From Saccoglossus kowalevskii (lineage: Eukaryota > Hemichordata > Enteropneusta > Harrimaniidae), in contig NW_003111022.1 in the NCBI RefSeq assembly GCF_000003605.2, forward strand, positions 1 to 27,791: a stretch of DNA of 27,791 nucleotides, in the 5' to 3' direction. Shown piece after piece: positions 2,625-27,791 of this stretch. The notes below the pieces were generated by a model that ran no database searches, was not told the origin of the DNA, and saw only the letters and a program-made list of their open reading frames with translations. Position numbers and translations under genes: made by a program. How positions within the stretch are numbered: position 1 is the first letter of the stretch; each line of letters starts with the position of its first letter.

Positions 2625-2671
2625 ACAATTAGTAATATGAAACAGTGTAGTCCAGAATCCAAGCAAGGTTG
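2625..2671. repeat. Highly diverged Sat86 monomer segment
   Basis: Within one monomer this stretch differs from the consensus at about 14 positions without changing its length. For example it reads ATATGAAACAGTGTAG where neighbours read ATATCTCCTGGTGTAG, and AAGCAAGGTTGCACTC where neighbours read ATGCAATGTTCCACTC. The monomers on either side are ordinary. It could be an old monomer that escaped homogenisation, or a conversion tract from another locus. Confidence 0.8.
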
Positions 2672-2969
2672 CACTCGATATACACCCAGATTCCACTAAC
2701 ACCTAGATACAATGCTAGTAATATCTCCTGGTGTAGACTAGAATCTATGCAATGTTCCACTCGATATACACCCAGATTTCACTAACACCTAGATACAATG
2801 CTAGTAATATCTCCTGGTGTAGTCTAGAATCTATGCAATGTTCCACTCGATATACACCCAGATTCCACTGACACCTAGATACAATGCTAGTAATATCTCT
2901 TGGTGTAGTCTTGAATCTATGTAATGTTCCACTCGATATACATCCAGATTCCACTAATACACATAGATA

Positions 2970-3682: not shown

Positions 3683-3720
3683 AGTGTGGAATCTATGCAA
3701 TGTTCCACTCGATATACACC
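3678..3720. repeat. Representative Sat86 A/B dyad (potential cruciform)
   Basis: At the junction of an A-type and a B-type monomer the + strand can fold on itself. The outer arms are GGTGTA (3678-3683) and TACACC (3715-3720). The inner arms are GTGGAA (3686-3691) and TTCCAC (3703-3708), around an 11-base loop. At the reverse B-to-A junction both arm pairs are broken, by GTCTTGAA on one side and TACATCC on the other. The dyad therefore occurs once per 172-bp dimer wherever strict alternation holds. Only one of many instances is listed. Confidence 0.75.
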
Positions 3721-6639: not shown

Positions 6640-7150
6640 TATACATCCAGATTCCACTAACACCTAGATACAATGCTAGTAATATCTCCTGGTGTAGTGT
6701 GGAATCTATGCAATGTTCCACTCGATATACACCCAGATTCAACTAACACCTAGATACAATGCTAGTAATATCTCCTGGTGTTGACTAGAATCCATGCAAT
6801 GTTCCACTCGATATACACCCAGATTCCACTGACACCTAGATACAATGCTAGTAATATCTCCTGGTGTAGACTAGAATCTATGCAATGTTCCACTTGATAT
6901 ACACTCAGATTCCACTAATACCTAGATACAATACTAGTAATATCCCCTGGTGTAGACTAGAATCCATGCAATGTTCCACTCAATATACACCCAGATTCCA
7001 CTGACACCTAGATACAATGCTAGTAATATCTCCTGGTGTAGACGAGAATCTATGCAATGTTCCACTCGATATACACCCAGATTCCACTAACACCTAGATA
7101 CAATGCTAGTAATATCTCCAGGTGTAGTGTAGAATCTATGCAATGTTCCA
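6640..7150. repeat. Sat86 higher-order block, diverged copy 3
   Basis: The marker order seen in the two earlier blocks recurs here: GGTGTTGACTAG near 6776, CACTTGATA at 6891, AATACTAGTAATATCCCC near 6932, CACTCAATA near 6978. The next marker reads GTAGACGAG near 7039 instead of GTAGACAAG. Small differences such as CACTCAG for CACCCAG near 6903 show that this copy is older or has been partly converted. Confidence 0.65.
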
Positions 7151-9349
7151 CTCGATATACACCCAGATTCCACTAACACCTAGATACAATGCTAGTAATA
7201 TCTCCTGGTGTAGACTAGAATCTATGCAATGTTCCACTCGATATACACCCAGATTCCACTAACACCTAGATACAATGCTAGTAATATCTCCTGGTGTAGT
7301 CTAGAATCTATGCAATGTTCCACTCGATATACACCCAGATTCCACTAACACCTAGATACAATGCTAGTAATATCTCCTGGTGTAGTCTAGAATCTATGCA
7401 ATGTTCCACTCGATATACACCCAGATTCCACTGACACCTAGATACAATGCTAGTAATATCTCTTGGTGTAGTCTTGAATCTATGTAATGTTCCACTCGAT
7501 ATACATCCAGATTCCACTAATACCTAGATACAATGCTAGTAATATCGCCTGGTGTTGTGTGGAATCTATGCAATGTTCCACTCGATATACACCCAGATTC
7601 CACTAACACCTAGATACAATGCTAATAATATCTCCTGGTGTAGACTAGAATCTATGCAATGTTCCACTCGATATACACCCAGATTCCACTAACACCTAGA
7701 TACAATGCTAGTAATATCTCCTGGTGTTGTGTGGAATCTATGAAATGTTCCACTCGATATACACCCAGATTCCACTAACAAATAGATACAATGCTAGTAA
7801 TATCTCCTGGTGTAGTCTAGAATCTATGCAATGTTCCACTCGATATACACCCAGATTCCACTAACACCTAGATACAATGCTAGTAATATCTCCTGGTGTA
7901 GTGTGGAATCTATGCAATGTTCCACTCGATATACACCCAGATTCCACTAACACCTAGATACAATGCTAGTAATATCCCCTGGTGTAGACTAGAGTCCATG
8001 CAATGTTGCACTCGATATACATCCAGATTCCACTAACACGTAGATACAATGCTAGTAATATCTCCTGGTGTAGTGTGGAATCTATGCAATGTTCCACTCG
8101 ATATACACCCAGATTCCACTGACACCTAGATACAATGCTAGTAATATCTTTTGGTGTAGTCTTGAATCAATGCAATGTTCCACTCGATATACATCCAGAT
8201 TCCACTAACACCTAGATGCAATGCTAGTAATATCTCCTGGTGTAGTGTGGAATCTATGCAATGTTCCACTTGATATACACCCAGATTCCACTGACACCTA
8301 GATACAATGCTAGTAATATCTCTTGGTGTAGTCTTGAATCTATGCAATGTTCCACTCGATATACATCCAGATTCCACTAACACGTAGATACAATGCTAGT
8401 AATATCTCCTGGTGTAGTCAAGAATCTATGCAATGTTCCACTCGATATACACCCAGATTCCACTGACACCTAGATACAATGCTAGTAATATCTCCTGGTG
8501 TAGTGTGGAATCTATGCAATGTTCCACTCGATATACACCCAGATTCCACTAACACCTAGATACAATGCTAGTAATATCTCCTGGTGTAGACTAGAATCCA
8601 TGCAATGTTCCACTCGATATACACCCAGATTCCACTAATACCTAGATACAATACTAGTAATATCCCCTGGTGTAGACTAGAATCCATGCAATGTTCCACT
8701 CGATATACACCCAGATTCCACTAACACCTAGATACAATGCTAGTAATATCTCCTGGTGTAGACTAGAATCTATGCAATGTTCCACTCGATATACACCCAG
8801 ATTTCACTAACACCTAGATACAATGCTAGTAATATCTCCTGGTGTAGTCTAGAATCTATGCAATGTTCCACTCGATATACACCCAGATTCCACTGACACC
8901 TAGATACAATGCTAGTAATATCTCTTGGTGTAGTCTTGAATCTATGTAATGTTCCACTCGATATACATCCAGATTCCACTAATACCTAGATACAATGCTA
9001 GTAATATCTCCTGGTGTAGTGTGGAATCTATGCAATGTTCCACTCGATATACACCCAGATTCCACTAACACCTAGATACAATGCTAGTAATATCTCCTGG
9101 TGTAGTCTAGAATCTATGCAATGTTCCACTCGATATACACCCAGATTCCACTAACACCTAGATACAATGCTAGTAATATCTCTTGGTGTAGTCTTGAATC
9201 TATGCAATGTTCCACTCGATATACATCCAGATTCCACTAACACCTAGATACAATGCTAGTAATATCTCCTGGTGTAGTGTGGAATCTATGCAATGTTCCA
9301 CTCGATATACACCCAGATTCCACTGACACCTAGATACAATGCTAGTAAT

Positions 9350-9355
9350 ATCTCT
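9350..9355. repeat. Left target-site duplication of element I copy 1 (ATCTCT)
   Basis: ATCTCT directly precedes the terminal CAGTG and is repeated directly after the element at 10687-10692. Without the element and one ATCTCT, the surrounding Sat86 monomer reads through normally (AATATCTCTTGGTG). This is direct evidence of transposon insertion into a pre-existing monomer. Six bases is shorter than the eight usual for hAT elements. Confidence 0.8.
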
Positions 9356-10686
9356 CAGTGTTCTCCACAATCCAAATTAGCTGGTGGGCGGCCTAATTAG
9401 CATAAATTTGCATATCAATTTGCATATCATTTACATACAGCATTCTCGCATTTATGACATGAACTGCAATACACACTAAGTTATTTACTATTCTCTTTTT
9501 AATTTAATTTTAATAATTGGAACATGTTACAATTTTTTGAAGTACAAACAGATTGGTCACTATCAATATTTACGAAATGCAAAAAGTTTGAAATCGGTGA
9601 TTTATGCGTTCGCAAATTATTCTGCGTTCATGAAATGCAATTCGAGTAACCAAGAGCAAGTACAAAACATAATTGAGTTATAATGTAGAAAATATACGAG
9701 ATGATTTGCCCACGAAGCCAAAACAGACAATTTGTCAAAACAAAATCCATAACATTTTTATTTGTGGCATCAGTACTCACCCGTGCCGACGGACGGTAAG
9801 ATGCATTTACGCATGTACGACCACGATACGTTGCGTTTTCACACATTGTTTTTGAATTCAAGAAAAAAATGCTAGCAATCGGCAAAATAAAAGAATCTGA
9901 TATGTTCTCGAAAGATTAGACATAAAAAAATAGATAAATTGAAAAAAGTACGTGGAAAAGATAACTAAAATATTATTCAATTACAAATACTCGCGGTAAA
10001 CTAATCCAGCAGCCATGTTTGATGTTTATTACCGCTTTCCGAATTCAGTACACGAACACCCAGAATGCGCTGTTCCCCTATGCAACTTAGATACTAAATC
10101 GTTACAGCGCCAACAGCGGTGGGTAGCAGACGGTCGTTGAATGAGGTAGGCCAAAAGGTCATCAGTTTGCCTTCTCCATGCTGTTTTCACAATGAAAATC
10201 GAGCGAACGTTGTAAATACGGCTAGAATTTAAATTTTTGTTCGAGTTTACATGCAATCTGCTAATATATTTGTTTATTTTCTGTGCACATACATTTCGTT
10301 CGTATTTACTTCTTTCTTTCGTGATCGGAAGACGATTATTAAAAATACAGCTGTAAATTGAAACCACTGTAGTTGCGTATCGTGAGCAATAAGTGGCAAC
10401 AATGTCGGGCGACAATGAATTCAAGCGATTGACACATTGCCATGAATACACTTGATAACTGCTTGCAGACTTCCAATGGACATTGTTTATGTTTGGACTG
10501 TTGAAACAATAGCAAAATAAAGGGTTGGGCAACTACTCTTTTGTTTAGGCTTGGGAAGAACAATGCAAGCTTTTTACAAATAATTTCAGCTGGATGTACG
10601 TTGGTGTGCGGGTGTTGAGAGTTACTGGGCGGCCGTAAAACTTGATGGGCGGGCCGCCCGCCTAAAACCCTTTGTGGAGAACACTG
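9356..10686 (+). mobile_element. Non-autonomous hAT-like DNA transposon, family I copy 1
   Basis: This 1331-bp element interrupts Sat86. Its perfect 15-bp terminal inverted repeats are CAGTGTTCTCCACAA (9356-9370) and its complement at 10672-10686. ATCTCT target duplications flank it. The CAG.G terminal pattern is typical of the hAT superfamily, but the 6-bp duplication is not the usual 8, so the superfamily call is an inference. GGGCG-type motifs lie 30 bases from the 5' end (9386) and 80, 59 and 39 bases from the 3' end (10606, degenerate; 10627; 10647). The last one forms the palindrome GGGCGG-G-CCGCCC (10647-10659). No transposase is encoded. A 504-bp minus-strand frame (10029-10532) starts at TTG and resembles no protein I know. 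Copy 2 is about 98.7% identical by eye count. Orientation is arbitrary. Confidence 0.88.
9406..9425 (+). promoter_or_regulatory. Two octamer-like motifs in element I
   Basis: ATTTGCAT, the complement of the POU-factor octamer ATGCAAAT, occurs at 9406-9413 and again at 9418-9425, 12 bases apart. Both are intact in copy 2 (13495-13502 and 13507-13514). AATTAGC occurs twice just upstream (9375 and 9395), 20 bases apart around the GGGCGG motif. Function is unproven, and in AT-rich DNA such matches can be fortuitous. Confidence 0.3.
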
Positions 10687-13444
10687 ATCTCTTGGTGTAG
10701 TCTTGAATCTATGCAATGTTCCACTCGATATACATCCAGATTCCACTAACACCTAGATACAATGCTAGTAATATCTCCTGGTGTAGTGTGGAATCTATGC
10801 AATGTTCCACTCGATATACACCCAGATTCCACTAACACCTAGATACAATGCTAGTAATATCTCTTGGTGTAGTCTAGAATCTATGCAATGTTCCACTCGA
10901 TATACATCCAGATTCCACTAACATGTAGATACAATGCTAGTAATATCTCCTGGTGTAGTCTAGAATCTATGCAATGTTCCACTCGATATACACCCAGATT
11001 CCACTGACACCTAGATACAATGCTAGTAATATCTCTTGGTGTAGTCTTGAATCAATGCAATGTTCCACTCGATATACATCCAGATTCCACTATCACCTAG
11101 ATGCAATGCTAGTAATATCTCCTGGTGTAGTGTGGAATCTATGCAATGTTCCACTCGATATACACCCAGATTCCACTGACACCTAGATACAATGCTAGTA
11201 ATATCTCTTGGTGTAGTCTTGAATCTATGCAATGTTCCACTCGATATACATCCAGATTCCACTAACACGTAGATACAATGCTAGTAATATCTCCTGGTGT
11301 AGTCTAGAATCTATGCAATGTTCCACTCGATATACACCCAGATTCCACTGACACCTAGATACAATGCTAGTAATATCTCCTGGTGTAGTGTGGAATCTAT
11401 GCAATGTTCCACTCGATATACACCCAGATTCCACTAACACCTAGATACAATGCTAGTAATATCTCCTGGTGTAGACTAGAATCTATGCAATGTTCCACTC
11501 GATATACATCCAGATTCCACTAACACCAAGATACAATGCTAGTAATATCTCCTGGTGTAGTGTGGAATCTATGCAATGTTCCACTCGATATACACCCAGA
11601 TTCCACTGACACCTAGATACAATGCTAGTAATATCTCTTGGTGTAGTCTTGAATCTATGCAATGTTCCACTCGATATACATCCAGATTCCACTAACACCT
11701 AGATACAATGCTAGTAATATCTCTTGGTGTAGTCTAGAATCTATGCAATGTTCCACTCGATATACATCCAGATTCCACTAACACCTAGATACAATGCTAG
11801 TAATATCTCCTGGTGTAGTGTGGAATCTATGCAATGTTCCACTCGATATACACCCAGATTCCACTGACACCTAGATACAATGCTAGTAATATCTCTTGGT
11901 GTAGTCTAGAATCTATGCAATGTTCCACTCGATATACATCCAGATTCCACTAACACCTAGATACAATGCTAGTAATATCGCCTGGTGTTGTGTGGAATCT
12001 ATGCAATGTTCCACTCGATATACACCCAGATTCCACTGACACCTAGATACAATGCTAGTAATATCTCTTGGTGTAGTCTTGAATCTATGCAATGTTCCAC
12101 TCGATATACATCCAGATTCCACTAACACCTAGATACAATGCTAGTAATATCTCCTGGTGTAGTGTGGAATCTATGCAATGTTCCACTCGATATACACCCA
12201 GATTCCACTGACACCTAGATACAATGCTAGTAATATCTCTTGGTGTAGTCTTGAATATATGTAATGTTCCACTCGATATACATCCAGATTCCACTAACAC
12301 CTAGATACAATGCTAGTAATATCTCCTGGTGTAGTGTGGAATCTATGCAATGTTCCACTCGATATACACCCAGATTCCACTAACACCTAGATACAATGCT
12401 AGTAATATCTCTTGGTGTAGACTAGAATCCATGCAATGTTCCACTCGATATACACCCAGATTCCACTAATACCTAGATACAATGCTAGTAATATCTCCTG
12501 GTGTAGTGTGGAATCTATGCAATGTTCCACTCGATATACACCCAGATTCCACTAACATCTAGATACAATGCTAGTAATATCTCGTGGTGTAGTGTGGAAT
12601 CTATGCAATGTTCCACTCGATATACACCCAGATTCCACTGACACCTAGATACAATGCTAGTAATATCTCCTGGTGTAGTGTGGAATCTATGCAATGTTCC
12701 ACTCGATATACACCCAGATTCCACTAACATCTAGATACAATGCTAGTAATATCTCGTGGTGTAGTGTGGAATCTATGCAATGTTCCACTCGATATACACC
12801 CAGATTCCACTGACACCTAGATACAATGCTAGTAATATCTCCTGGTGTAGTGTGGAATCTATGCAATGTTCCACTCGATATACACCCAGATTCCACGGAC
12901 ACCTAGATACAATGCTAGTAATATCTCTTGGTGTAGTCTTGAATCAATGCAATGTTCCACTCGATATACACCCAGATTCCACTAACACCTAGATACAATG
13001 CTAGTAATATCTCTTGGTGTAGTCTTGAATCTATGCAATGTTCCACTCGATATACATCCAGATTCCACTAACACATAGATACAATGCTAGTAATATCTCC
13101 TGGTGTAGTGTGGAATCTATGCAATGTTCCACTCGATATACACCCAGATTCCACTGACACCTAGATACAATGCTAGTAATATCTCTTGGTGTAGTCTAGA
13201 ATCTATGCAATGTTCCACTCGATATACATCCAGATTCCACTAACACCTAGATACAATGCTAGTAATATCTCCTGGTGTAGTCTAGAATCTATGCAATGTT
13301 CCACTCGATATACATCCAGATTCCACTAACACCTAGATACAATGCTAGTAATATCTCCTGGTGTAGTGTGGAATCTATGCAATGTTCCACTCGATATACA
13401 CCCAGATTCCACTGACACCTAGATACAATGCTAGTAATATCTCT
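10687..13444. repeat. Sat86 satellite array, right block
   Basis: This is the continuation of the 86-bp array between the two family I copies. It is 2758 bp, which is 32 monomers plus the 6-bp target duplication at 10687-10692. The two transposon insertion points therefore fall at the same monomer phase. Positions 10892-11723 match 1-832 without a difference that I could find. They share rare variants such as CATGTAG, TATCACC, TAGATGCAATG, CACGTAG and ACACCAAG. The array stops abruptly at ATCTCT before copy 2 and does not resume on the far side. Confidence 0.95.
10892..11723. repeat. 832-bp Sat86 segment identical to positions 1-832
   Basis: Read base by base, this segment and 1-832 (shift 10891) agree until 11724, where this copy has T and position 833 has C. 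The left end of the shared block cannot be judged because the window begins inside it. The segment spans about ten monomers and carries at least five rare variants in the same order. It therefore reflects a segment-level copying event and not chance similarity of monomers. Confidence 0.85.
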
Positions 13445-14779
13445 CAGTGTTCTCCACAATCCAAATTAGCTGGTGGGCGGCCTAATTAGCATAAATTTGC
13501 ATATTAATTTGCATATCATTTACATACAGCATTCTCGCATTTATGACATGAACTGCAATACACACTAAGTTATTTACTATTCTCTTTTTAATTTAATTTA
13601 ATTTAATTTAATTGGAACATGTTACAATTTTTTGAAATACAAACAGATTGGTCACTATCAATATTTACGAAATGCAAAAAGTTTGAAATCGGTGATTTAT
13701 GCGTTCGCAAATTATTCTGCGTTCATGAAATGCAATTCGAGTAACCAAGAGCAAGTACAAAACATAATTGAGTTATAAGGTAGAAAATATACGAGATGAA
13801 TTGCCCACGAAGCCAAAACAGACAATTTGTCAAAACAAAATCCATAACATTTTTATTTGTGGCATCTACTCACCCGTGCCGACGGACGGTAAGATGCATT
13901 TACGCATGTACGGCCACGATACGTTGCGTTTTCACACATTGTTTTGGAATTCAAGAAAAAAATGCTAGCAATCGGCAAAATAAAAGAATCTGACATGTTC
14001 TCGAAAGATTAGACATAAAAAAATAGATAAATTGAAAAAAGTACGTGGAAAAGATAACTAAAATATTATTCAATTACAAATACTCGCGGTAAACTAATCC
14101 AGCAGTCATGTTTGATGTTTATTACCGCTTTCCGAATTCAGTACACGAACACCCAGAATGCGCTGTTCCCCTATGCAACTTAGATACTAAATCGTTACAG
14201 CGCCAACAGCGGTGGGTAGCAGACGGTCGTTGAATGGGGTAGATCAAAAGGTCATCAGTTTGCCTTCTCCATGCTGTTTTCACAATGAAAATCGAGCGAA
14301 CATTGTAAATACGGCTAGAATTTAAATTTTTGTTCGAGTTTACATGCAATCTGCTAATATATTTGTTTATTTTCTGTGCATATACATTTCGTTCGTATTT
14401 ACTTCTTTCTTTCGTGATCGGAAGACGATTATTAAAAATACAGCTGTAAATTGAAACCACTGTAGTTGCGTATCGTGAGCAATAAGTGGCAACAATGTCG
14501 GGCGACAATGAATTCAAGCGATTGACACATTGCCATGAATACACTTGATAACTGCTTGCAGACTTCCAATGGACATTGTTTATGTTTGGACAGTTGAAAC
14601 AATAGCAAAATAAAGGGTTGGGCAACTACTCTTTTGTTTAGGCTTGGGAAGAACAATGCAAGCTTTTTACAAATAATTTCAGCTGGATGTACGTTGGTGG
14701 GCGGGTGTTGAGAGTTACTGGGCAGCCGTAAAACTTGATGGGCGGGCCGCCCGCCTAAAACCCCTTGTGGAGAACACTG
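13445..14779 (+). mobile_element. Non-autonomous hAT-like DNA transposon, family I copy 2
   Basis: This 1335-bp copy is in the same orientation as copy 1. Its 15-bp inverted repeats are at 13445-13459 and 14765-14779. I count about 17 substitutions and two small indels against copy 1: a longer AATTT run near 13593, and loss of two bases near 13865. The left flank is Sat86 ending in ATCTCT, at the same monomer phase as copy 1. The right flank (ACATGTGCTAC) is not satellite and does not repeat ATCTCT, so there is no target duplication. Subterminal GGGCG motifs are at 13475 and at 14699, 14720 and 14740, with GGGCAG at 14720. It lies exactly at the edge of the Sat86 array. Confidence 0.87.
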
Positions 14780-14928
14780 ACATGTGCTACACACATTTCA
14801 GGTTTAAAATTAGAACATCTTAGATGCTTGGTCAATTGTTTACAGTTGATTTTATTTGACAAGTAAAAACTTGAAGGGTCACAATACGAGATCATTTTGT
14901 AAAACTTGAGATTTTGACCTTAAGTCAG
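14780..14928. other. Unique AT-rich spacer between element I copy 2 and IIa
   Basis: These 149 bp match neither satellite nor transposon family in this window. I see no open frame of note, no RNA gene and no repeat. It is the first unique DNA to the right of the Sat86 array and would make a useful anchor for placing the locus. Confidence 0.7.
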
Positions 14929-15620
14929 CAGGGTTCTCCACGGTTTGAAAATTAAACAGGGCGCGCCAATGTGAAGTGGGCGTGGCACATTTGTAACGTG
15001 CATCATTGGCAAGGATGGAAACTAAAAAAATCTATTAATCTACATATATTATTACATATGCATAATATATATTTATTATTACAAAATGAATAGGAATTTT
15101 GAAGAGCTATTATTAAGTAAACGTCAGCACGTACAATCAGCTGATTTTAGCTGCACGATTCCTCAAGCGGCGACATCAGTTGTTTACAAGTAATGATCGC
15201 GTCCAGAAAATAACGTAACAAGTTTGTTAATTTATTTTCCCAAATAGATACATACATGCTTTATTTAATTTTTAGCAAAAATTTATATTTATGATTTATA
15301 TTTATTTGGACGAAGCAAAATAAAATGTATGTCGCACAAACGTTCGTAATTGGTTCATTAAAAAACTTGCATGAATGGCACCAAAAAACAAGGTGATCAA
15401 ACGAAATAAAATGTACACAATAGAAGATTTTCGATCTGCAGTTAACAGTTACTATCAAAAATAATAGAATTAGGTATAAAAAAAACAAAATACATACTTA
15501 AAAGAATAATTTTCATTCGAAATCGAAAGTTTGTTGATGTCTGCTTCATTGAAAACAGCTATGACCCGGAAACAGTTCATTTTACTGTGTGCACCCTGAT
15601 ACTATGTAACGATGCTTTTG

Positions 15621-15659
15621 ATTGGCCAAAGCCACGCATTGACGCGAAAAACAACCAAT
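15621..15659. promoter_or_regulatory. Paired inverted CCAAT boxes in element IIa
   Basis: ATTGG (15621-15625) and CCAAT (15655-15659, within ACCAATCAGA) face each other 34 bases apart, with GACGCGAAAA, an E2F-like string, between them. The pair and its spacing are kept in IIb (17643 and 17677) and IIc (27004 and 27038). ACCAATCAGA is close to the NF-Y consensus. Promoter activity is an inference, and conservation among copies may reflect common descent only. Confidence 0.35.
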
Positions 15660-15997
15660 CAGAATATTTGTTCCAAAAGAACACAAGTAAATTTATTTCC
15701 TCCACTTATGATGCGAGTTGAAAGCATGGACGTTTTAATGGGGTTTTTAAATCGTGATTTAAAGAAAATTCAACTTTAAATAGTGACATTTAAATATAAA
15801 CATTTACATGTTCAAGCAAGCATTCGTGTGGACTTCTTGGTGATCAGCAATGTCTGTGATGGTACGTCGGCTGCGCTGGTCGTTTGTTCCACTCGGCGGT
15901 GACGATGTTGCTGCTACCTAGTCACGGCGTGAACTTGGTTTTAACCATAGACCTTATGGTTTAGCGAATGGTTTTACCGATAACGATTTTATATATT

Positions 15998-16005
15998 TGA
16001 CGTCA
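15998..16005. promoter_or_regulatory. Palindromic CRE-like site TGACGTCA beside a TATA-like run
   Basis: TGACGTCA is the full consensus binding site of the CREB/ATF family. It directly follows TTTTATATATT. The same combination occurs in IIb (18020-18027) and IIc (27408-27415). Together with the CCAAT pair it makes this part of family II look like a polymerase II promoter. That reading is tentative. Confidence 0.35.
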
Positions 16006-16102
16006 CCCTGGCAGTAAAAATATGGGTACGGTAATGCACTTTTCTAGGCCACATGTTCATTTTTAATCGTGTTGAAAAAACTTGTAACTTTTTGTTTGGT
16101 GG

Positions 16103-16136
16103 TGTTATCACCTCACGGTGACCTGCTACGATAACA
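16103..16136. repeat. Imperfect hairpin in element IIa
   Basis: TGTTATC (16103-16109) and GATAACA (16130-16136) are inverted repeats. Inside them TCACC (16108-16112) and GGTGA (16117-16121) can pair around a TCAC loop. IIb keeps the structure. IIc keeps it too but has about 10 extra bases (GCATGGAGGT) just upstream. The role is unknown. Confidence 0.5.
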
Positions 16137-16258
16137 AACCGGAATTTTCACAGTTGCACCTTAAAACAATGAACCAGTTACCCTGAGCACGATGAATCAT
16201 CTTCGGAAGACAATGAGTGTTGGCCTGTTTTGTAAACAATTCTTTGTCTGGGACCATG

Positions 16259-16337
16259 CAGGGCGCACAGGAAATATAACAGGGCGCTGACAATTTAAAC
16301 AGGGCGCCAATTTCAGATAACAGGGCGCGGCGCCCTG
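16259..16337 (+). repeat. Phased CAGGGCGC subterminal repeats of element IIa
   Basis: CAGGGCGC starts at 16259, 16280, 16300 and 16321. The last copy continues into the palindrome CAGGGCGC-G-GCGCCCTG (16321-16337). Steps of 20-21 bases correspond to about two helical turns, so all copies would face the same side of the DNA. IIb (18281, 18302, 18322, 18343) and IIc (27679, 27700, 27720, 27741) have identical spacing. Subterminal repeats of this kind bind transposase in known hAT elements, so a transposase-binding role is likely but inferred. Confidence 0.75.
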
Positions 16338-16362
16338 TAAAAACCCCTCGTGGAGAACCCTG

Positions 16363-16949
16363 TGCACATGCACTATTAATAGAGTAAAACCGTACATGAA
16401 CTTGTTTATACAGATCTTTGATATAATGAAGTATTCTAGCTCTGTTAGAAGCCCATGTGCTTACATAAGTATTAACTTTTTCACCACTAGTTCTCTGTTT
16501 TCATCACAAACTCACAAAATAATTTATAGTCTTTTATAGTCTGCTCTTTCCTTTAGAAGATTTGGACAAAAATAGACAAATTTTTCGAGTTAACCTGACA
16601 ATTGACTCAAATTTTGTCCTTTGGCTTTAAAATTACGGTTCATTTCCAGAAATATTGAAGAATACAAGAAAAAAGTGCAGACAAATGTGGGTGAGAAAGT
16701 CTGGTGCTGAAAAGGTTGAGGTGTGTCTATGGTCGAAATAAGGCATAATAATTTGGTATACCTATATACATTGTATGCATTTTACATGCACTTACATGCA
16801 CTTTTATTGGAGATACCGTACATTTATGATATAGCTCATACTGTTTCATAGCATTAAATACAAACGCAGCTAAGCCACTGTAGAAGTACAGCATTTTGAG
16901 TTTTGAGTAATTCAAGAAATTTATTTACAGTTGGTTGGGTGCAGTAGTA
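16363..16949. other. Unique AT-rich region between IIa and the gap
   Basis: These 587 bp are not satellite or transposon. Small internal duplications are visible: TTTATAGTC twice near 16521-16540 and ACATGCACTT twice near 16784-16803. There is no long open frame. One short stretch (16650-16690) looks exon-like, with a CAG acceptor and a GTGAGA donor. Nothing else can be supported. Confidence 0.6.
16650..16690 (+). other. Possible 41-bp internal exon
   Basis: The stretch is preceded by GGTTCATTTCCAG, a plausible 3' splice site, and followed by GTGAGAAAG, a plausible 5' splice site. It can encode a charged peptide, NIEEYKKKVQTNV, in one frame. That frame stays open through the putative donor to a TGA a few codons later, and upstream to about 16606. 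No partner exons are seen in the window and I recognise no protein. This could easily be chance. Confidence 0.2.
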
Positions 16950-16999
16950 NNNNNNNNNNNNNNNNNNNNNNNNNNNNNNNNNNNNNNNNNNNNNNNNNN
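16950..16999. other. Assembly gap (50 N)
   Basis: Exactly 50 N bases, which may be a fixed placeholder and not a measured length. Alignment with IIa and IIc shows that about 46 bases of the IIb 5' terminus, including its terminal inverted repeat and GGGCG motif, are missing here. Confidence 0.98.
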
Positions 17000-18384
17000 A
17001 GTGGGCGTGGCACATTGTACGTGCATCATTGGCAAGGATGTTGAAAAATGGAAACCAAAAAATCTATTAATCTACATATTATTACATATGCATAATATAT
17101 ATTTTGAAGAGCTATTATTAAGTAAACGTCAGCACGTACAATCAGCTGATTTTTCAACTTCAATCAACTAAGTTAGCTGCACGATTCCTCAAGCGGCGAC
17201 ATCAGTTGTTTACAAGTAATGATCGCGTCCAGAAAAAAACGTAACAAGTTTGTTAATTTATTTTCCCAAATAGATACATACATGCTTTATTTAATTATTT
17301 GCAAAAATGTATATTTATGATTTATATTTATTTGGACGAAGCAAAATAAAATATATGTCGCACAAACGTTCGTAATTGGTTCATTAAAAAACTTGCACGA
17401 ATGGCACCAAAAACCAAGGTGATCAAACGAAATAAAATGTACACAATAGATTTTCGATCTACAGTTAACAGTTACTATCAAAAATAATAGAATTAGGTAT
17501 AAAAAAAACAAAATACATATTTAAAAGAATAATTTTCATTCGAATCGAAAGTTTGTTGATGTCTGCTTCGTTGAAAACAGCTATGACCCGGAAACAGTTC
17601 ATTTTACTGTGTGCATCCTGATACTATGTAATGATGCTTTTGATTGGCCAAAGCCATGCATTGACGCGAAAAACAACCAATCAGAATATTTGTTCCAAAA
17701 GAACACAAGTAAATTTATTTCCTCCACTTATGATGCGAGTTGAAAGCATGGCCGTTTTACTGGGGTTTTTAAATCGTGATTTAAAGAAAATTCAACTTTA
17801 AATAGTGACATTTAAATATAAACATTTACATGTTCAAGCAAGCATTCGTGTGGACTTCTTGTTGATCAGCAATGTCTGTGATGGTACGTCGGCTGCGCTG
17901 GTCGTTTGTTCCACTCGGCGGTGACGATGTTGCCGCTACCTAGTCACGGCGTGATCTTGGTATAACCATAGGCCTTATGATTTAGCGAATGTGTTTTACC
18001 GATAACAATTTTATATATTTGACGTCACCCTGGCAGTAAAAATATGGGTACGGTAATGCACTTCTCTAGGCCACATGTTCATTTTTAATCGTGTTGAAAA
18101 AACTTGTAACTTTTTGTTTGGTGGTGTTATCACCTCACGGTGACCTGCTACGATAACAAACCGGAATTTTCACAGTTGCACCTTAAAACAATGAACCAGT
18201 TACCCTGAGCACGATGAATCATCTTCGGAAGACAATGAGTGTTGGCCTGTTTTGTAAACAATTCTTTGTCTGGGACCATGCAGGGCGCACAGGAAATATA
18301 ACAGGGCGCTGACAATTTAAACAGGGCGCCAATTTCAGATAACAGGGCGCGGCGCCCTGTAAAAACCCCTCGTGGAGAACCCTG
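17000..18384 (+). mobile_element. hAT-like DNA transposon, family II copy b (5' end in the gap)
   Basis: The visible part begins at AGTGGGCGTGG, which corresponds to base 47 of IIa, and ends in the 14-bp terminal repeat at 18371-18384. Differences special to this copy are loss of about 25 bases near 17100, about 19 extra bases near 17152-17170, and a 3-base deletion near 17448. It shares with IIa the absence of a 40-base segment that IIc has near 27258. The base after its 3' end is the first base of Sat38 (CCCTACAGTTCC). That is the same monomer phase at which IIc is inserted. Its left flank and any left target duplication are hidden by the gap. Confidence 0.85.
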
Positions 18385-19250
18385 CCCTACAGTTCCACTG
18401 AGTTATAATTCTTCAGGTGAACCCTACAGTTCCACTGAGTTTATAATTTATGAGGTGAACCCTACAGTTCTACTGAGTTTATAATTCTTGAGGTGAACCC
18501 TACAGTTCCACTGAGTTTATAATTCTTGAGGTGAACCCTACAGTTCTACTGAGTTTATAATTCTTGAGGTGAACCCTACAGTTCCACTGAGTTTATAATT
18601 CTTGAGGTGAACCCTACAGTTCCACTGAGTTTATAATTCTTGAGGTGAACCCTACAGTTCCACTGAGTTTATAATTCTTGAGGTGAACCCTACAGTTCTA
18701 CTGAGTTTATAATTCTTGAGGTGAACCCTACAGTTCCACTGAGTTTATAATTCTTGAGGTGAACCCTACAGTTCTACTGAGTTTATAATTCTTGAGGTGA
18801 ACCCTACAGTTCTACTGAGTTTATAATTTTTGAGGTGAACCCTACAGTTCCACTGAGTTTATAATTCTTGAGGTGAACCCTACAGTTCCACTGAGTTTAT
18901 AATTCTTGAGGTGTACCCTACAGTTCCACTGAGTTTATAATTCTTGAGGTGAACCCTACAGTTCCACTGAGTTTATAATTCTTGAGGTGAACCCTACAGT
19001 TCCACTGAGTTTATAATTCTTGAGGTGAACCCTACAGTTCCACTGAGTTTATAATTCTTGAGGTGAACCCTACAGTTCCACTGAGTTTATAATTCTTGAG
19101 GTGAACCCTACAGTTCTACTGAGTTTATAATTCTTGAGGTGAACCCTACAGTTCCACTGAGTTTATAATTCTTGAGGTGAACCCTACAGTTCCACTGAGT
19201 TTATAATTCTTGAGGTGAACCCTACAGTTCTACCGAGTTTATAATTCTTG

Positions 19251-19854
19251 AGGTGTACCCTACAGTTCCACTGAGTTTATAATTCTTGAGGTGAACCCTA
19301 CAGTTCCACTGAGTTATAATTCTTGAGGTGAACCTTACAGTTCCACTGAGTTATAATTCTTGAGGTGAACCCTACAGTTCCACTGAGTTTATAATTCTTG
19401 AGGTGAACCCTACAGTTCTACTGAGTTTATAATTCTTGAGGTGAACCCTACAGTTCTACTGAGTTTATAATTCTTGAGGTGAACCCTACAGTTCTACTGA
19501 GTTTATAATTCTTGAGGTGAACCCTACAGTTCCACTGAGTTTATAATTCTTGAGGTGTACCCTACAGTTCCACTGAGTTTATAATTCTTGAGGTGAACCC
19601 TACAGTTCCACTGAGTTATAATTCTTGAGGTGAACCTTACAGTTCCACTGAGTTATAATTCTTGAGGTGAACCCTACAGTTCCACTGAGTTTATAATTCT
19701 TGAGGTGAACCCTACAGTTCTACTGAGTTTATAATTCTTGAGGTGAACCCTACAGTTCTACTGAGTTTATAATTCTTGAGGTGAACCCTACAGTTCTACT
19801 GAGTTTATAATTCTTGAGGTGAACCCTACAGTTCCACTGAGTTTATAATTCTTG
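19251..19854. repeat. Perfect 302-bp higher-order repeat in Sat38 (two copies)
   Basis: Positions 19251-19552 recur at 19553-19854 with no difference that I could see. The unit is eight monomers, six of 38 bp and two of 37 bp. It starts with the GTGTACCC variant and includes the AACCTTACAG variant followed by three GTTCTACTG monomers. A third copy begins at 19855 but diverges near 19918. A related but altered stretch begins near 20177. Confidence 0.85.
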
Positions 19855-20499
19855 AGGTGTACCCTACAGTTCCACTGAGTTTATAATTCTTGAGGTGAAC
19901 CCTACAGTTCCACTGAGTTTATAATTCTTGAGGTGAACCCTACAGTTCCACTGAGTTTATAATTCTTGAGGTGAACCCTACAGTTCCACTGAGTTTATAA
20001 TTCTTGAGGTGAACCCTACAGTTCCACTGAGTTTATAATTCTTGAGGTGAACCCTACAGTTCTACTGAGTTTATAATTCTTGAGGTGAACCCTACAGTTC
20101 CACTGAGTTTATAATTCTTGAGGTGAACCCTACAGTTCCACTGAGTTTATAATTCTTGAGGTGAACCCTACAGTTCTACCGAGTTTATAATTCTTGAGGT
20201 GTACCCTACAGTTCCACTGAGTTTATAATTCTTGAGGTGAACCCTACATTTCCACTGAGTTATAATTCTTGAGGTGAACCTTACAGTTCCACTGAGTTAT
20301 AATTCTTGAGGTGAACCCTACAGTTCCACTGAGTTTATAATTCTTGAGGTGAACCCTACAGTTTCACTGAGTTATAATTCTTGAGGTGAACCCTACAGTT
20401 CCACTGAGTTTATAATTCTTGAGGTGTACCCTACAGTTCCACTGAGTTTATAATTCTTGAGGTGAACCCTACAGTTCCACTGAGTTATAATTCTTGAGG

Positions 20500-21220
20500 T
20501 GAACCCTACAGTTCCACTAAGTTTATAATTCTTGAGGTGAACCCTACAGTTCCACTGAGTTTATAATTCTTGAGGTGAACCCTACAGTTCTACTGAGTTT
20601 ATAATTCTTGAGGTGAACCCTACAGTTCCACTGAGTTTATAATTCTTGAGGTGAACCCTACAGTTCCACTGAGTTTATACTTCTTGAGGTGAACCCTACA
20701 GTTCCACTGAGTTTATAATTCTTGAGGTGAACCCTACAGTTCCACTGAGTTATAATTCTTGAGGTGAACCCTACAGTTCCCCTGAGTTTATAATTCTTGA
20801 GGTGAACCCTACAGTTCCACTGAGTTATAATTCTTGAGGTGAACCCTACAGTTCTACTGAGTTTATAATTCTTGAGGTGAACCCTACAGTTCCACTGAGT
20901 TATAATTCTTGAGGTGAACCCTACAGTTCCACTGAGTTATAATTCTTGAGGTGAACCCTACAGTTCCACTGAGTTATAATTCTTGAGGTGAACCCTACAG
21001 TTCCACTAAGTTTATAATTCTTGAGGTGAACCCTACAGTTCCACTGAGTTTATAATTCTTGAGGTGAACCCTACAGTTCTACTGAGTTTATAATTCTTGA
21101 GGTGAACCCTACAGTTCCACTGAGTTTATAATTCTTGAGGTGAACCCTACAGTTCCACTGAGTTTATACTTCTTGAGGTGAACCCTACAGTTCCACTGAG
21201 TTTATAATTCTTGAGGTGAA
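20500..21220. repeat. Sat38 duplicated block with a 489-bp shift
   Basis: Two rare variants, CCACTAAGTTTATAA (20514 and 21003) and GAGTTTATAC (20671 and 21160), recur in the same order at a shift of exactly 489 bp. That equals 13 monomers including five short ones. CCACTAAG appears twice more near 21910 and 22023, so the block has been copied further in part. Confidence 0.7.
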
Positions 21221-22578
21221 CCCTACAGTTCTACTGAGTTATAATTCTTGAGGTGAACCCTACAGTTCCACTGAGTTTATAATTCTTGAGGTGAACCCTA
21301 CAGTTCCTCTGAGTTTATAATTTATGAGGTGAATCCCACAGTTCTACTGAGTTTATAATTCTTGAGGTGAACCCTACAGTTCCACTGAGTTTATAATTCT
21401 TGAGGTGAACCCTACAGTTCCACTGAGTTTATAATTCTTGAGGTGAACCCTACAGTTCCACTGAGTTTATAATTCTTGAGGTGAACCCTACAGTTCCACT
21501 GAGTTTATAATTCTTGAGGTGAACCCTACAGTTCCACTGAGTTTATAATTTATGAGGTGAACCCTACAGTTCCACTGAGTTATAATTCTTGAGGTGAACC
21601 CTACAGTTCCACTGAGTTTATAATTCTTGAGGTGAACCCTACAGTTCCACTGAGTTTATAATTTATGAGGTGAACCTTACAGTTCCACTGAGTTATAATT
21701 CTTGAGGTGAACCCTACAGTTCCACTGAGTTTATAATTCTTGAGGTGAACCCTACAGTTTCACTGAGTTATAATTCTTGAGGTGAACCCTACAGTTCCAC
21801 TGAGTTTATAATTCTTGAGGTGTACCCTACAGTTCCACTGAGTTTATAATTCTTGAGGTGAACCCTACAGTTCCACTGAGTTATAATTCTTGAGGTGAAC
21901 CCTACAGTTCCACTAAGTTTATAATTCTTGAGGTGAACCCTACAGTTCCACTGAGTTTATAATTCTTGAGGTGAACCCTACAGTTCCACTGAGTTATAAT
22001 TCTTGAGGTGAACCCTACAGTTCCACTAAGTTTATAATTCTTGAGGTGAACCCTACAGTTCCACTGAGTTTATAATTCTTGAGGTGAACCCTACAGTTCT
22101 ACTGAGTTTATAATTCTTGAGGTGAACCCTACAGTTCCACTGAGTTTATAATTCTTGAGGTGAACCCTACAGTTCCACTGAGTTTATAATTCTTGAGGTG
22201 AACCTTACAGTTCCACTGAGTTTATAATTTATGAGGTGAACCCTACAGTTCTACTGAGTTTATAATTCTTGAGGTGTACCCTACAGTTCTACTGAGTTTA
22301 TAATTCTTGAGGTGAACCCTACAGTTCTACTGAGTTTATAATTCTTGAGGTGAACCCTACAGTTCCACTGAGTTTATAATTCTTGAGGTGAACCCTACAG
22401 TTCCACTGAGTTTATAATTCTTGAGGTGAACCCTACAGTTCCACCGAGTTTATAATTCTTGAGGTGTACCCTACAGTTCCACTGAGTTTATAATTCTTGA
22501 GGTGAACCCTACAGTTCTACTGAGTTTATAATTCTTGAGGTGAACCCTACAGTTCCACTGAGTTATAATTCTTGAGGT

Positions 22579-22594
22579 GAACTCAACAGCTCGA
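22579..22594. repeat. Diverged Sat38 monomer segment
   Basis: This monomer reads GAACTCAACAGCTCGACTG where the consensus is GAACCCTACAGTTCCACTG. It has several substitutions within 16 bases and no length change. Neighbouring monomers are ordinary. Confidence 0.75.
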
Positions 22595-22844
22595 CTGAGT
22601 TTATAATTCTTGAGGTGAACCCTACAGTTCCACTGAGTTTATAATTTTTGAGGTGAACCCTACAGTTCCACTGAGTTTATAATTCTTGAGGTGAACCCTA
22701 CAGTTCCACTGAGTTTATAATTCTTGAGGTGAACCCTACAGTTCCACTGAGTTTATAATTCTTGAGGTGAACCCTACAGTTCTACTGAGTTTATAATTCT
22801 TGAGGTGAACCCTACAGTTCCACTGAGTTTATAATTCTTGAGGT

Positions 22845-23460
22845 GATCGAACCCTACAGTTCCACTGAGTTTATAATTCTTGAGGTGAACCCTACAGTTC
22901 CACTGAGTTTATAATTCTTGAGGTGAACCCTACAGTTCCACTGAGTTTATAATTCTTGAGGTGAACCCTACAGTTCCACTGAGTTATAATTCTTGAGGTG
23001 AACCCTACAGTTCCACTGAGTTTATAATTCTTGAGGTGTACCCTACAGTTCCACTGAGTTTATAATTCTTGAGGTATACCCTACAGTTCCACTGAGTTTA
23101 TAATTCTTGAGGTGAACCCTACAGTTCCACTGAGTTTATAATTCTTGAGGTGTACCCTACAGTTCCACTGAGTTTATAATTCTTGAGGTGAACCCTACAG
23201 TTCCACTGAGTTTATAATTCTTGAGGTGAACCCTACAGTTCCACTGAGTTTATAATTCTTGAGGTGAACCCTACAGTTCCACTGAGTTTATAATTCTTGA
23301 GGTGAACCCTACAGTTCCACTGAGTTTATAATTCTTGAGGTGAACCCTACAGTTCTACTGAGTTTATAATTCTTGAGGTGAACCCTACAGTTCCACTGAG
23401 TTTATAATTCTTGAGGTGAACCCTACAGTTCCACTGAGTTTATAATTCTTGAGGTGATCG
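22845..23460. repeat. Sat38 block marked by GGTGATCGAACCC insertions
   Basis: A four-base insertion turning GGTGAACCC into GGTGATCGAACCC occurs twice only, near 22845 and 23456, 611 bp apart. Both instances have the same surrounding monomers. This is best explained by duplication of a 16-monomer block after the insertion arose. Confidence 0.7.
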
Positions 23461-26298
23461 AACCCTACAGTTCCACTGAGTTTATAATTCTTGAGGTGAA
23501 CCCTACAGTTCCACTGAGTTTATAATTCTTGAGGTGTACCCTACAGTTCCACTGAGTTTATAATTCTTGAGGTGAACCCTACAGTTCCACCGAGTTTATA
23601 ATTCTTGAGGTGTACCCTACAGTTCCACTGAGTTTATAATTCTTGAGGTGAACCCTACAGTTCCACTGAGTTTATAATTCTTGAGATGAACCCTACAGTT
23701 CCACTGAGTTATAATTCTTGAGGTGAACCCTACAGTTCCACTGAGTTTATAATTCTTGAGGTGAACCCTACAGTTCCACTGAGTTTATAATTCTTGAGGT
23801 GAACCCTACAGTTCCACTGAGTTTATAATTCTTGAGGTGAACCCTACAGTTCCACTGAGTTTATAATTCTTGAGGTGAACCCTACAGTTCCACTGAGTTT
23901 ATAATTCTTGAGGTGAACCCTACAGTTCCACTGAGTTTATAATTCTTGAGGTGAACCCTACAGTTCCACTGAGTTTATAATTCTTGAGGTGAACCCTACA
24001 GTTCCACTGAGTTTATAATTCTTGAGGTGAACCCTACAGTTCCACTGAGTTTATAATTCTTGAGGTGAACCCTACAGTTCCACTGAGTTTATAATTCTTG
24101 AGGTGAACCCTACAGTTCCACTGAGTTTATAATTCTTGAGGTGAACCCTACAGTTCCACTGAGTTTATAATTCTTGAGGTGAACCCTACAGTTCCACTGA
24201 GTTTATAATTCTTGAGGTGAACCCTACAGTTCCACTGAGTTTATAATTCTTGAGGTGAACCCTACAGTTCCACTGAGTTTATAATTCTTGAGGTGAACCC
24301 TACAGTTCCACTGAGTTTATAATTCTTGAGGTGAACCCTACAGTTCCACTGAGTTTATAATTCTTGAGGTGAACCCTAGAGTTCCACTGAGTTTATAATT
24401 CTTGAGGTGAACCTTACAGTTCCACTGAGTTATAATTCTTGAGGTGAACCCTACAGTTCCACTGAGTTTATAATTCTTGAGGTGAACCCTACAGTTCCAC
24501 TGAGTTTATAATTCTTGAGGTGAACCCTACAGTTCCACTGAGTTTATAATTTATGAGGTGAACCCTACAGTTCCACTGAGTTTATAATTCTTGAGGTGAA
24601 CCCTACAGTTCCACTGAGTTTATAATTCTTGAGGTGTACCCTACAGTTCCACTGAGTTTATAATTCTTGAGGTGAACCCTACAGTTCCACTGAGTTATAA
24701 TTCTTGAGGTGAACCCTACAGTTCCACTGAGTTTATAATTCTTGAGGTGAACCCTACAGTTCCACTGAGTTATAATTCTTGAGGTGAACCCTACAGTTCC
24801 ACTGAGTTATAATTCTTGAGGTGAACCCTACAGTTCCACTGAGTTTATAATTCTTGAGGTGAACCCTACAGTTCCACTGAGTTATAATTCTTGAGGTGAA
24901 CCCTACAGTTCCACTGAGTTTATAATTCTTGAGGTGAACCCTACAGTTCCACTGAGTTTATAATTCTTGAGGTGAACCCTACAGTTCCACTGAGTTTATA
25001 ATTCTTGAGGTGAACCCTACAGTTCCACTGAGTTTATAATTCTTGAGGTGAACCCTACAGTTCCACTGAGTTTATAATTCTTGAGGTGAACCCTACAGTT
25101 CCACCGAGTTTATAATTCTTGAGGTGAACCCTACAGTTCCACTGAGTTTACAATTCTTGAGGTGTACCCTACAGTTCCACTGAGTTTATAATTCTTGAAG
25201 TGAACCCTACAGTTCCACTGAGTTTATAATTCTTGAGGTGAACCCTACAGTTCCACTGAGTTTATAATTCTTGAGGTGTACCCTACAGTGCCACTGAGTT
25301 TATAATTCTTGAGGTGAACCTTACAGTTCCACTGAGTTTATAATTCTTGAGGTGAACCCTACAGTTTCACTGAGTTTATAATTCTTGAGGTGAACCTTAC
25401 AGTTCCACTGAGTTTATAATTCTTGAGGTGAACCCTACAGTTCCACTGAGTTTATAATTCTTGAGGTGAACCCTACAGTTCCACTGAGTTATAATTCTTG
25501 AGGTGAACCCTACAGTTCCACTGAGTTTATAATTCTTGAGGTGAACCCTACAGTTCCACTGAGTTATAATTCTTGAGGTGAACCTTACAGTTCCACTGAG
25601 TTATAATTCTTGAGGTGAACCCTACAGTTCCACTGAGTTATAATTCTTGAGGTGAACCCTACAGTTCTACTGAGTTATAATTCTTGAGGTGAACCTTACA
25701 GTTCCACTGAGTTATAATTCTTGAGGTGAACCCTACAGTTCCACTGAGTTTATAATTCTTGAGGTGAACCCTACAGTTCCACTGAGTTTATAATTCTTGA
25801 GGTGAACCCTACAGTTCCACTGAGTTTATAATTCTTGAGGTGTACCCTACAGTTCCACTGAGTTTATAATTCTTGAGGTGAATCCTACAGTTCCACTGAG
25901 TTATAATTCTTGAGGTGAACCCTACAGTTCCACTGAGTTTATAATTCTTGACGTGTACCCTACAGTTCCACTGAGTTTATAATTCTTGAGGTGAACCCTA
26001 CAGTTCCACTGAGTTTATAATTCTTGAGGTGAACCCTACAGTTCCACTGAGTTTATAATTCTTGAGGTGTACCCTACAGTTCCACTGAGTTTATAATTCT
26101 TGAGGTGAACCCTACAGTTCCACTGAGTTTATAATTCTTGAGGTGAACCCTACAGTTCTACTGAGTTTATAATTCTTGAGGTGAACCCTACAGTTCCACT
26201 GAGTTTATAATTCTTGAGGTGAACCCTACAGTTCCACTGAGTTTATAATTCTTGAGGTGAACCCTACAGTTCTACTGAGTTATAATTCTTGAGGTGAA

Positions 26299-26305
26299 CC
26301 CTACA
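26299..26305. repeat. Left CCCTACA flanking IIc
   Basis: CCCTACA, part of the last Sat38 monomer, directly precedes the terminal CAGGG of IIc. The same seven bases follow the element at 27783-27789. Seven matching bases fit a target duplication. Because the 7-mer belongs to the satellite monomer and also follows IIb, other histories are possible. Confidence 0.65.
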
Positions 26306-27782
26306 CAGGGTTCTCCACGGTTTGAAAATTAAACAGGGCGCGCCAATGTGAAGTGGGCGTGGCACATTTGTAACGTGCATCATTGGCAAGGATGTTGAAA
26401 AATGGAAACCAAAAAATCTATTAATCTACATATTATTACATATGCATAATATATATTTATTATTACAAAATGAATAGGAATTTCGAAGAGCTATTATTAA
26501 GTAAACGTCAGCACGTACAATCAGCTGATTTTAGCTGCATGATTCCTCAAGCGGCGACATCAGTTGTTTACAAGTAATGATCGTGTCCAGAAAAAGACGT
26601 AACAAGTTTGTTAATTTATTTTCCCAAATAGATACATACATGCTTTATTTAATTTTTAGCAAAAAATTATATTTATGATTTATATTTATTTGGACGAAGC
26701 AAAATAAAATATATGTCGCACAAACGTTCGTAATTGGTTCATTAAAAAACTTGCATGAATGGCACCAAAAACCAAGGTGATCAAACGAAATAAAATGTAC
26801 ACAATAGAAGATTTTCGATCTGCAGTTAACAGTTACTATCAAAAATAATAGAATTAGGTATAAAAAAAACAAAATACATACTTAAAAGAATAATTTTCAT
26901 TCAAATCGAAAGTTTGTTGATGTCTGCTTCGTTGAAAACAGCTATGACCCGGAAACAGTTCATTTTACTGTGTGCACCCTGAATCTATGTAACGATGCTT
27001 TTGATTGGCCAAAGCCACGCATTGACGCGAAAAACAACCAATCAGAATATTTGTTCCAAAAGAACACAAGTAAATTTATTTCCTCCACTTATGAAGCATG
27101 GCCGTTTTATCAGGGTTTTTAAATCGTGATTTAAAGAAAATTCAACTTTAAATAGTGACATTTAAATGTAAACATTTACATGTTCAAGCAAGCATTCGTG
27201 TGGACTTCTTGGTGATCAGCAATGTCTGTAATGGTACGTCGGCTGCGCTGGTCGTTTACCGATCATGCAAGTGCATAGCTGCCCGGTTGCTGCCTTTGTT
27301 CCACTCGGCGGTGACGATGTGCCGCTACCTAGTCACGGCGTGAACTTGGTTTTAACCATAGACCTTATGTTTAACGAATGGTTTTACCAATAACGATTTT
27401 ATATATTTGACGTCACCCTGGTAGTAAAAATATGGGTACGGTAATGCACTTTTCTGGGCCACATGTTCATTTTTAATCGTGTTGAAAAAACTTGTAACTT
27501 TTTGTTTGGTGGTGCATGGAGGTGTTATCACCTCACGGTGACCTGCTACGATAACAAACCGGAATTTTCACAGTTGCACCTTAAAACAATGAACCAGTTA
27601 CCCTGAGCACGATGAATCATCTTCGAAAGACAATGAGTGTTGGCCTGTTTTGTAAACAATTCTTTGTCTGGGACCATGCAGGGCGCACAGGAAATATAAC
27701 AGGGCGCTGACAATTTAAACAGGGCGCCAATTTCAGATAACAGGGCGCGGCGCCCTGTAAAAACCCCTCGTGGAGAACCCTG
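26306..27782 (+). mobile_element. Non-autonomous hAT-like DNA transposon, family II copy c
   Basis: A complete 1477-bp copy with 14-bp inverted repeats at 26306-26319 and 27769-27782. GGGCG is 30 bases from the 5' end (26336), and four phased CAGGGCGC sites lie near the 3' end. It has 40 bases absent from IIa and IIb (near 27258-27297), about 10 extra bases near 27515, and lacks about 10 bases near 27093 that the others have. It keeps the TTGAAAAATGG segment missing from IIa and the segment missing from IIb, so it may be nearest to the ancestral form in the 5' half. CCCTACA flanks both ends. No transposase is encoded. Confidence 0.88.
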
Positions 27783-27791
27783 CCCTACATG
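27783..27791. other. Right flank of IIc (CCCTACATG)
   Basis: The first seven bases repeat the left flank of IIc. The next two (TG) differ from the Sat38 continuation (GT), which suggests that the satellite does not resume here. Nine bases are too few to be sure. Confidence 0.5.

Follow-up and report, generated by a model that had tools for sequence, protein, structure and literature searches.

Two transposon families with unrelated interiors share terminal and subterminal architecture in a satellite-rich stretch of the Saccoglossus kowalevskii genome

Why do two transposon families with unrelated interiors carry the same short motif at nearly the same distances from their ends? The question is raised by 27,791 nucleotides of Saccoglossus kowalevskii DNA (contig NW_003111022.1, assembly GCF_000003605.2, positions 1 to 27,791), henceforth the window. 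The window is mostly satellite, and five copies of two element families, I and II, lie in and beside the arrays. A preliminary description had reported the shared motif positions, and its observation as a whole holds with small corrections. The layout is as follows.

1..9355, forward strand, 86-bp satellite array to the left of I1 (1-9354 in TRF)
9350..9355, forward strand, left target duplication of I1, ATCTCT, inside the 86-bp satellite
9356..10686, forward strand, family I copy I1, 1331 bp, with 15-bp perfect terminal inverted repeats
10687..10692, forward strand, right target duplication of I1, ATCTCT
10687-13443 (TRF), continuation of the 86-bp satellite array right of I1
13445..14779, forward strand, family I copy I2, 1335 bp
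14929..16362, forward strand, family II copy IIa, 1434 bp
16950-16999, N gap
17000..18384, forward strand, family II copy IIb, at the N gap, first 46 bp missing (by alignment to IIa)
18385..26305, forward strand, 38-bp satellite array between IIb and IIc
26299..26305, forward strand, left target duplication of IIc, CCCTACA
26306..27782, forward strand, family II copy IIc, 1477 bp, with 14-bp perfect terminal inverted repeats
27783..27789, forward strand, right target duplication of IIc, CCCTACA

The target duplication is 6 bp in family I and 7 bp in family II, each length coming from one copy (I1 and IIc). No target duplication was seen at the flanks of I2 or IIa. The left flank of I2 is satellite in the same phase as that of I1 and its right flank is non-satellite; the right flank of IIb is 38-bp satellite. 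From the flanks we also weighed, and did not favour, an 8-bp duplication that had lost bases. For family II we considered a 6-bp duplication plus an extra C; the right flank of IIa begins with T, which favours 7 bp. For family I, a 5-bp duplication plus an extra A is a further possibility, since an A follows both copies.

I1 and I2 differ by 19 substitutions and two indels in a MAFFT alignment of about 1331 bp, and by 17 mismatches and 3 gaps in blastn. The family II copies differ by 27-35 substitutions per pair (35/1350 between IIb and IIc, and 30/1354 and 27/1418 between IIa and IIb and IIc, respectively). Pfam gave no match above cut-off in the 8 ORFs scanned out of 140 listed for 9356-18384, the ORFs of IIb and IIc lying outside the scan, so that the elements look non-autonomous.

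We compared the ends and interiors of the two families. They have in common a 13-bp terminus that differs at one base, the fourth, in agreement with the earlier remark that the termini differ at few bases. The 5' termini read CAG[T/G]GTTCTCCAC (at 9356, 13445, 14929 and 26306) and the 3' termini read GTGGAGAAC[A/C]CTG (ending at 10686, 14779, 16362, 18384 and 27782). The last 40 bp align between families without gaps, at 80% identity for I2 and 77.5% for I1 against family II. Beyond this 3' block the next best blastn match between families has E = 0.33. The interiors are unrelated, as had been described.

Against this background the subterminal motif GGGCG keeps a register. It begins exactly 30 bases from the 5' end in all four copies in which that end is present, as had been described. 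At the 3' end, family II carries exact GGGCG at offsets 39, 60, 80 and 101 in all three copies; the site at 101 had been named as an addition particular to this family, and it is. Family I has 3' sites at offsets 39, 59 and 80, of which only the site at 39 is GGGCG in both copies, and a family I end with three intact 3' sites is a two-copy composite only. The reported series of 39, 59-60 and 80 therefore extends to every family II copy and is broken once in each family I copy. Its base-exactness fails at the middle site, at 59 in family I and 60 in family II, and the spacing is not invariant. The earlier list of sites lacked both copy IIb and the second 5' site of family II, at offset 49. In family I a further GGGCG lies in the interior, 279 bases from the 3' end. 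The sites and the palindromes at offset 39 are these.

9386..9390, forward strand, 5' GGGCG site of I1, offset 30 (I2 13475, IIa 14959, IIc 26336)
14978..14982, forward strand, additional 5' site of IIa, offset 49 (IIc 26355), TGGGCGT, unlike the other family II sites
10606..10631, forward strand, 3' sites of I1: offset 80 GTGCG (broken, 10606) and offset 59 GGGCG
14699 and 14720, 3' sites of I2: GGGCG (offset 80) and GGGCA (offset 59, broken)
10647..10659, no strand, palindrome GGGCGG-G-CCGCCC of I1 at the 39 site (I2 14740-14752)
16261..16306, forward strand, 3' sites of IIa at offsets 101, 80 and 60 (16261, 16282, 16302)
18283, 18304 and 18324, 3' sites of IIb at offsets 101, 80 and 60
27681, 27702 and 27722, 3' sites of IIc at offsets 101, 80 and 60
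16321..16337, no strand, palindrome CAGGGCGC-G-GCGCCCTG of IIa (IIb 18343-18359, IIc 27741-27757)

The two ends are asymmetric, with a long array at the 3' end and one or two sites at the 5' end. With 10.5 bp to a turn and the 39 site as origin, the 3' sites lie at 0, 1.9 and 3.9 helical turns in family I and at 0, 2.0, 3.9 and 5.9 in family II. The 3' spacing of 1.9-2.0 turns agrees with the roughly two turns proposed before. At the 39 site the motif is part of a palindrome around a single central G, which differs by family, again as described. It is perfect in all five copies, and its centre lies 33 bases from the 3' end in each. The 13-bp cores of the two families are separated by a mirror pair of substitutions, and the dyad is preserved.

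In the stretches that separate the sites, I2 and IIa agree at 7 of 50 positions at the 3' end (14%) and 12 of 47 at the 5' end (26%), with about 25% expected by composition. The spacers of the two families thus resemble each other no more than chance. The three spacers of the IIa 3' array show no mutual similarity beyond shuffles, so the array no longer shows a tandem-duplication origin. With no spacer similarity between the families or within the IIa array, the motifs stand out as conserved words.

We assessed the motifs against chance. GGGCG and CGCCC, the latter being the other palindrome arm, were counted together in I1, I2, IIa and IIc and in 500 dinucleotide shuffles of each. The counts were 5, 5, 7 and 7, including the interior word of family I, and the shuffle means were 0.8-1.1. 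The largest shuffle counts were 5, 4, 4 and 6, and only I1 was matched by at least one shuffle. For the positions, our P values are after-the-fact estimates from one pair of families with sites pooled over copies: 0.0009 for all three family I 3' sites lying within 1 bp of a family II site (union over copies), 0.012 with the 39 site set aside, 0.025 when the anchor at 39 and a spacing of 12-30 bp are granted, and about 0.05 for the shared 5' offset of 30. Because the 39 site lies inside the alignable 40-bp block, shared descent can account for it, and it does not count as a separate coincidence.

The motif itself differs between the families in a concerted manner. The family I word is TGGGCGG at four sites (taking the intact version from whichever copy has it) and contains CGG, whereas the family II word is AGGGCGC at five of six sites and contains GCGC. 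The exception is the 5' site at offset 49 (TGGGCGT). Nine of the 10 sites match the flanks of their own family (label permutation, P = 0.005). This concerted difference can be read directly from the DNA, as can the anatomy of the ends, their register and the target duplications.

Constraint on the ends is visible in one family. Among the three family II copies there are 46 substituted columns, counted with IIb lacking its first 46 bases and with some columns adjoining alignment gaps. None falls within the 5' 65 or the 3' 156 positions of IIa, and the chance of no substitutions in the 5' 55 plus the 3' 110 positions is 0.003. In family I, 3 of the 19 substitutions lie in the last 80 bp, 2 of them inside motif sites, and end constraint is not visible. 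Presumably the family II copies transposed, which needs intact ends, whereas I1 and I2 were copied passively with the satellite.

We consider families I and II to be, with good probability, non-autonomous hAT-type elements with phased subterminal repeats that depend on zf-BED transposases of two related specificities. Elements of the hAT superfamily classically make 8-bp duplications and have terminal repeats of 10-25 bp (PMC3942097, in part). The perfect terminal repeats of I1 (15 bp) and IIc (14 bp) fall within this range, and the duplications of 6 bp in I1 and 7 bp in IIc do not have the canonical length. Both families also have multiple short subterminal repeats, a feature that is seen in several hATs and is not strictly defining. 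The groups hAT5, hAT6 and hAT7 make 5-, 6- and 7-bp duplications (PMC12730594, in part). Families I and II, judged from one copy each, have the duplication lengths of hAT6 and hAT7, the latter described in that source from rust fungi. We therefore call them hAT6/hAT7-like by target duplication. The hAT label itself is provisional and draws only on the termini, the target-duplication class and the subterminal repeats.

A transposase acting in trans would need the 14-15 bp terminal repeat, where the strands would be cut, together with several 7-bp CG-rich subterminal repeats lined up along one helix face, about two turns apart, the outermost 3' repeat being doubled into the palindrome. A multimeric zf-BED transposase would probably bind this palindrome with two DNA-binding domains, and other subunits would bind further repeats. 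Such binding would fix the distance of each repeat to the cut site. The enzyme would meet unequal ends, a long array on the 3' side against one or two sites on the 5' side. TGGGCGG in family I and AGGGCGC in family II would be read by two related transposases or by one lineage with two variants of specificity, the spacing having been kept while nearly every site changed in step. What we infer is the protein itself, that it has a BED finger and is multimeric, and that there are two enzymes. The earlier proposal had been one transposase lineage with two recognition variants. The shared termini, the register without spacer similarity and the concerted motif difference favour it in outline. As to whether one and the same enzyme serves both families, the differing word and duplication length lean towards two related enzymes. 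The motif at offset 49 in family II, which breaks the family rule, counts against our explanation, as do the 59/60 mismatch, the substitutions inside family I motif sites, the departure from the classic 8-bp duplication and the lack of a Pfam match in the 8 ORFs scanned.

Among published systems, the left end of Hermes offers the best-fitting comparison. There exact phasing of the repeats with the terminal repeat is required, two BED domains cooperate in binding a quasi-palindrome, and moving the first two repeats by one base severely impairs cleavage; BED domains were not seen on the repeats of the right end (PMC10368747, in part). Families I and II resemble Hermes, here on the strength of sequence, in their short phased repeats, palindrome and unequal ends. 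The Hermes motif, however, is AAGT beside AT-rich DNA, whereas theirs is based on GGGCG, and the Hermes palindrome is found between bases 11 and 27 at the left end, whereas theirs is centred 33 bases from the 3' end (PMC10368747, in part).

Unrelated interiors under one transposase have a precedent in maize Ac/Ds, as we read the comparison. Heterogeneous Ds elements share only the terminal repeats and some subterminal repeats, and the subterminal hexamer is bound by the transposase (PMC3260210, in part). The motif there is AAACGG and the duplications are 8 bp, whereas families I and II have CG-rich motifs in a fixed register and 6- or 7-bp duplications. In the same source, none of the tested maize Ds-l elements, which carry the hexamers, responded to Ac; in our analysis, motif arrays alone, such as shared subterminal repeats, do not prove mobilisation or use. 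Herves is a further case in which a short subterminal motif is sufficient for transposase binding (PMC3143072, in part). Like families I and II it has one short motif at both ends; its left and right ends are bound differently, and its motif, CG/AATTCAT, is unlike GGGCG. The hAT-derived CGG-binding proteins, including those of the hAT-19 type, have a zf-BED and a Hermes-type binding domain and usually prefer CGG or CGC, several of them GCGC (PMC8097297, in part). AT-rich words are preferred by some of these hAT proteins. For each of the four hAT proteins that showed binding, motif matches occur in the subterminal regions of the corresponding element (PMC8097297, in part). We take kinship of families I and II with the hAT-19 and CGG-binding proteins as a lead only.

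Searches for relatives gave little. The terminal pattern had no match in viral contigs and one in genome contigs, an archaeal record without GGGCG in the 201 bases examined, which we took as chance. The motif-pair pattern occurred in 69 viral stretches, none of them with the exact terminus, and a phage search with I1 alone gave no match. In the literature, the matches listed for the terminal strings (20 of 22) looked unrelated, as judged from the listing, those listed for GGGCG with "subterminal" (8 of 117) did not contain GGGCG, and a query on hAT subterminal repeats had no match.

Of the explanations that we weighed, the most likely in our analysis is that zf-BED hAT-type transposases of two related specificities mobilise the families in trans. 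Plain shared descent would make the families internal-replacement derivatives of one ancestor, with old homologous ends that have no present binding role. It accounts for the gapless last 40 bp (77.5-80%, 39 site included), for a 13-bp terminus common to both ends and for the two family I motif sites that are broken in one copy each. Descent without function, however, predicts that motifs decay alongside spacers. No residual similarity is left outside the terminal block and the sites (7/50, 12/47), yet GGGCG at 3' offset 80 and 5' offset 30 is still in exact register, and the motif flanks changed together at separate sites. We regard this explanation as unlikely. We give still less credence to the idea that the GC-rich sites serve a host factor (such as Sp1/KLF or E2F-like proteins) in transcription or chromatin and not in transposition. 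TGGGCGG, present at four places in family I, resembles a GC box. AGGGCGC of family II is not known to be a GC box and counts against this idea, as do a palindromic site whose position is constant across the two families and sites at fixed distances from the cut ends of elements without a recognised gene (8 ORFs scanned).

Membership of a superfamily other than hAT, such as Dada (duplications of 6-7 bp) or IS3EU (6 bp), seems similarly improbable to us. Dada makes 6-7 bp duplications and targets multicopy sequences, and in Dada-U6 and Dada-U1 subterminal inverted repeats are also present in the target (PMC3706591, in part); IS3EU families make 6-bp duplications (PMC12730594, in part). Dada, however, lacks terminal inverted repeats and occupies small-RNA genes. 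Families I and II have perfect repeats of 14-15 bp, and the window yielded no RNA gene. Dada, a candidate because of the 6-7 bp duplications, was dropped for these reasons. The fungal IS3EU families have terminal repeats of over 30 bp and TAYGG ends (PMC12730594, in part), as against the 14-15 bp and CAG ends here.

Within the preferred hAT-type reading, the families might document that sister hAT transposases switched their DNA-binding specificity and, more boldly, that family II prefers a satellite site; we suggest this only tentatively. The end geometry (cut site, palindrome centre and two-turn spacing) would have been frozen by the shape of the multimer, the binding sites would have shifted in concert, one word being of CGG type and the other of GCGC type, and the mirror change in the palindrome would be compensating. 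If so, the pair would separate features fixed by the scaffold from what the finger reads. If the hAT-type reading is right, the pair is a natural covariation experiment on hAT end recognition, with spacing kept and word changed. It would then test whether BED-finger specificity drifts while multimer geometry stays fixed and would inform how new non-autonomous families are recruited. The principle of shared terminal and subterminal repeats, unrelated interiors and mobilisation in trans is already known from Ac/Ds, and the value lies in a clean pair of families, not in a new kind of element.

We examined how the copies came to lie where they do. I1 and I2 look like products of local co-duplication. 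Over 172-430 bp the satellite to the left of one copy is unusually similar to that left of the other; over 430 bp the two flanks are 98.1% identical, other same-phase stretches averaging 94.7%, and 1.1% of 91 such stretches reach this identity. The flank identity is close to the divergence of the elements themselves (19 in about 1331 bp), which makes co-duplication likelier, and on this ground we did not take the shared satellite phase of I1 and I2, read as independent insertions, for evidence of targeting. Against co-duplication, 9.6% of 104 stretches match the flank identity over the first 86 bp, and the I1 flank ranks 3rd, 2nd and 5th over 860, 1290 and 2580 bp.

In family II, the right junction of IIb (18385-18391) and the left junction of IIc (26299-26305) cut the 38-bp monomer at one and the same point, CCCTACA. 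The two copies show the same satellite junction from opposite sides. IIb and IIc have diverged as much from one another as from IIa, so that independent insertion at one site is possible, and family II may prefer one site of the satellite monomer.

The start of I2 coincides with the end of the 86-bp array (I2 with its adjoining positions, 13444-14780), and the end of IIb with the start of the 38-bp array (18384-18385). These boundaries could be biology or assembly joins at repeats. There is also the N gap at 16950-16999. The longest repeat shared by the two parts of the 86-bp array is an exact one of 832 bp, at 1-832 and 10892-11723; the second-longest between the parts is 562 bp, and the longest inside 1-9355 is 720 bp. 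The 832-bp repeat suggests recent segmental turnover of the array. No Rfam match at the gathering score and no tRNA gene was found in the window, and the satellite strings had no match in a text search of the literature. The 38-bp array has two 42-bp spacings (22840-22859 and 23450-23469) with the same 4-base insert, GGTGATCGAACCC for GGTGAACCC.

The CpG observed/expected ratio is 1.1-1.2 in I1, I2, IIa and IIc. It is 0.32 in the 86-bp satellite, 0.03 in the 38-bp satellite, and 0.27 (1 CpG; 14780-14928) and 0.38 (6 CpG; 16363-16949) in the unique flanks, both of which are short. The elements of both families may be young within a CpG-depleted genome.
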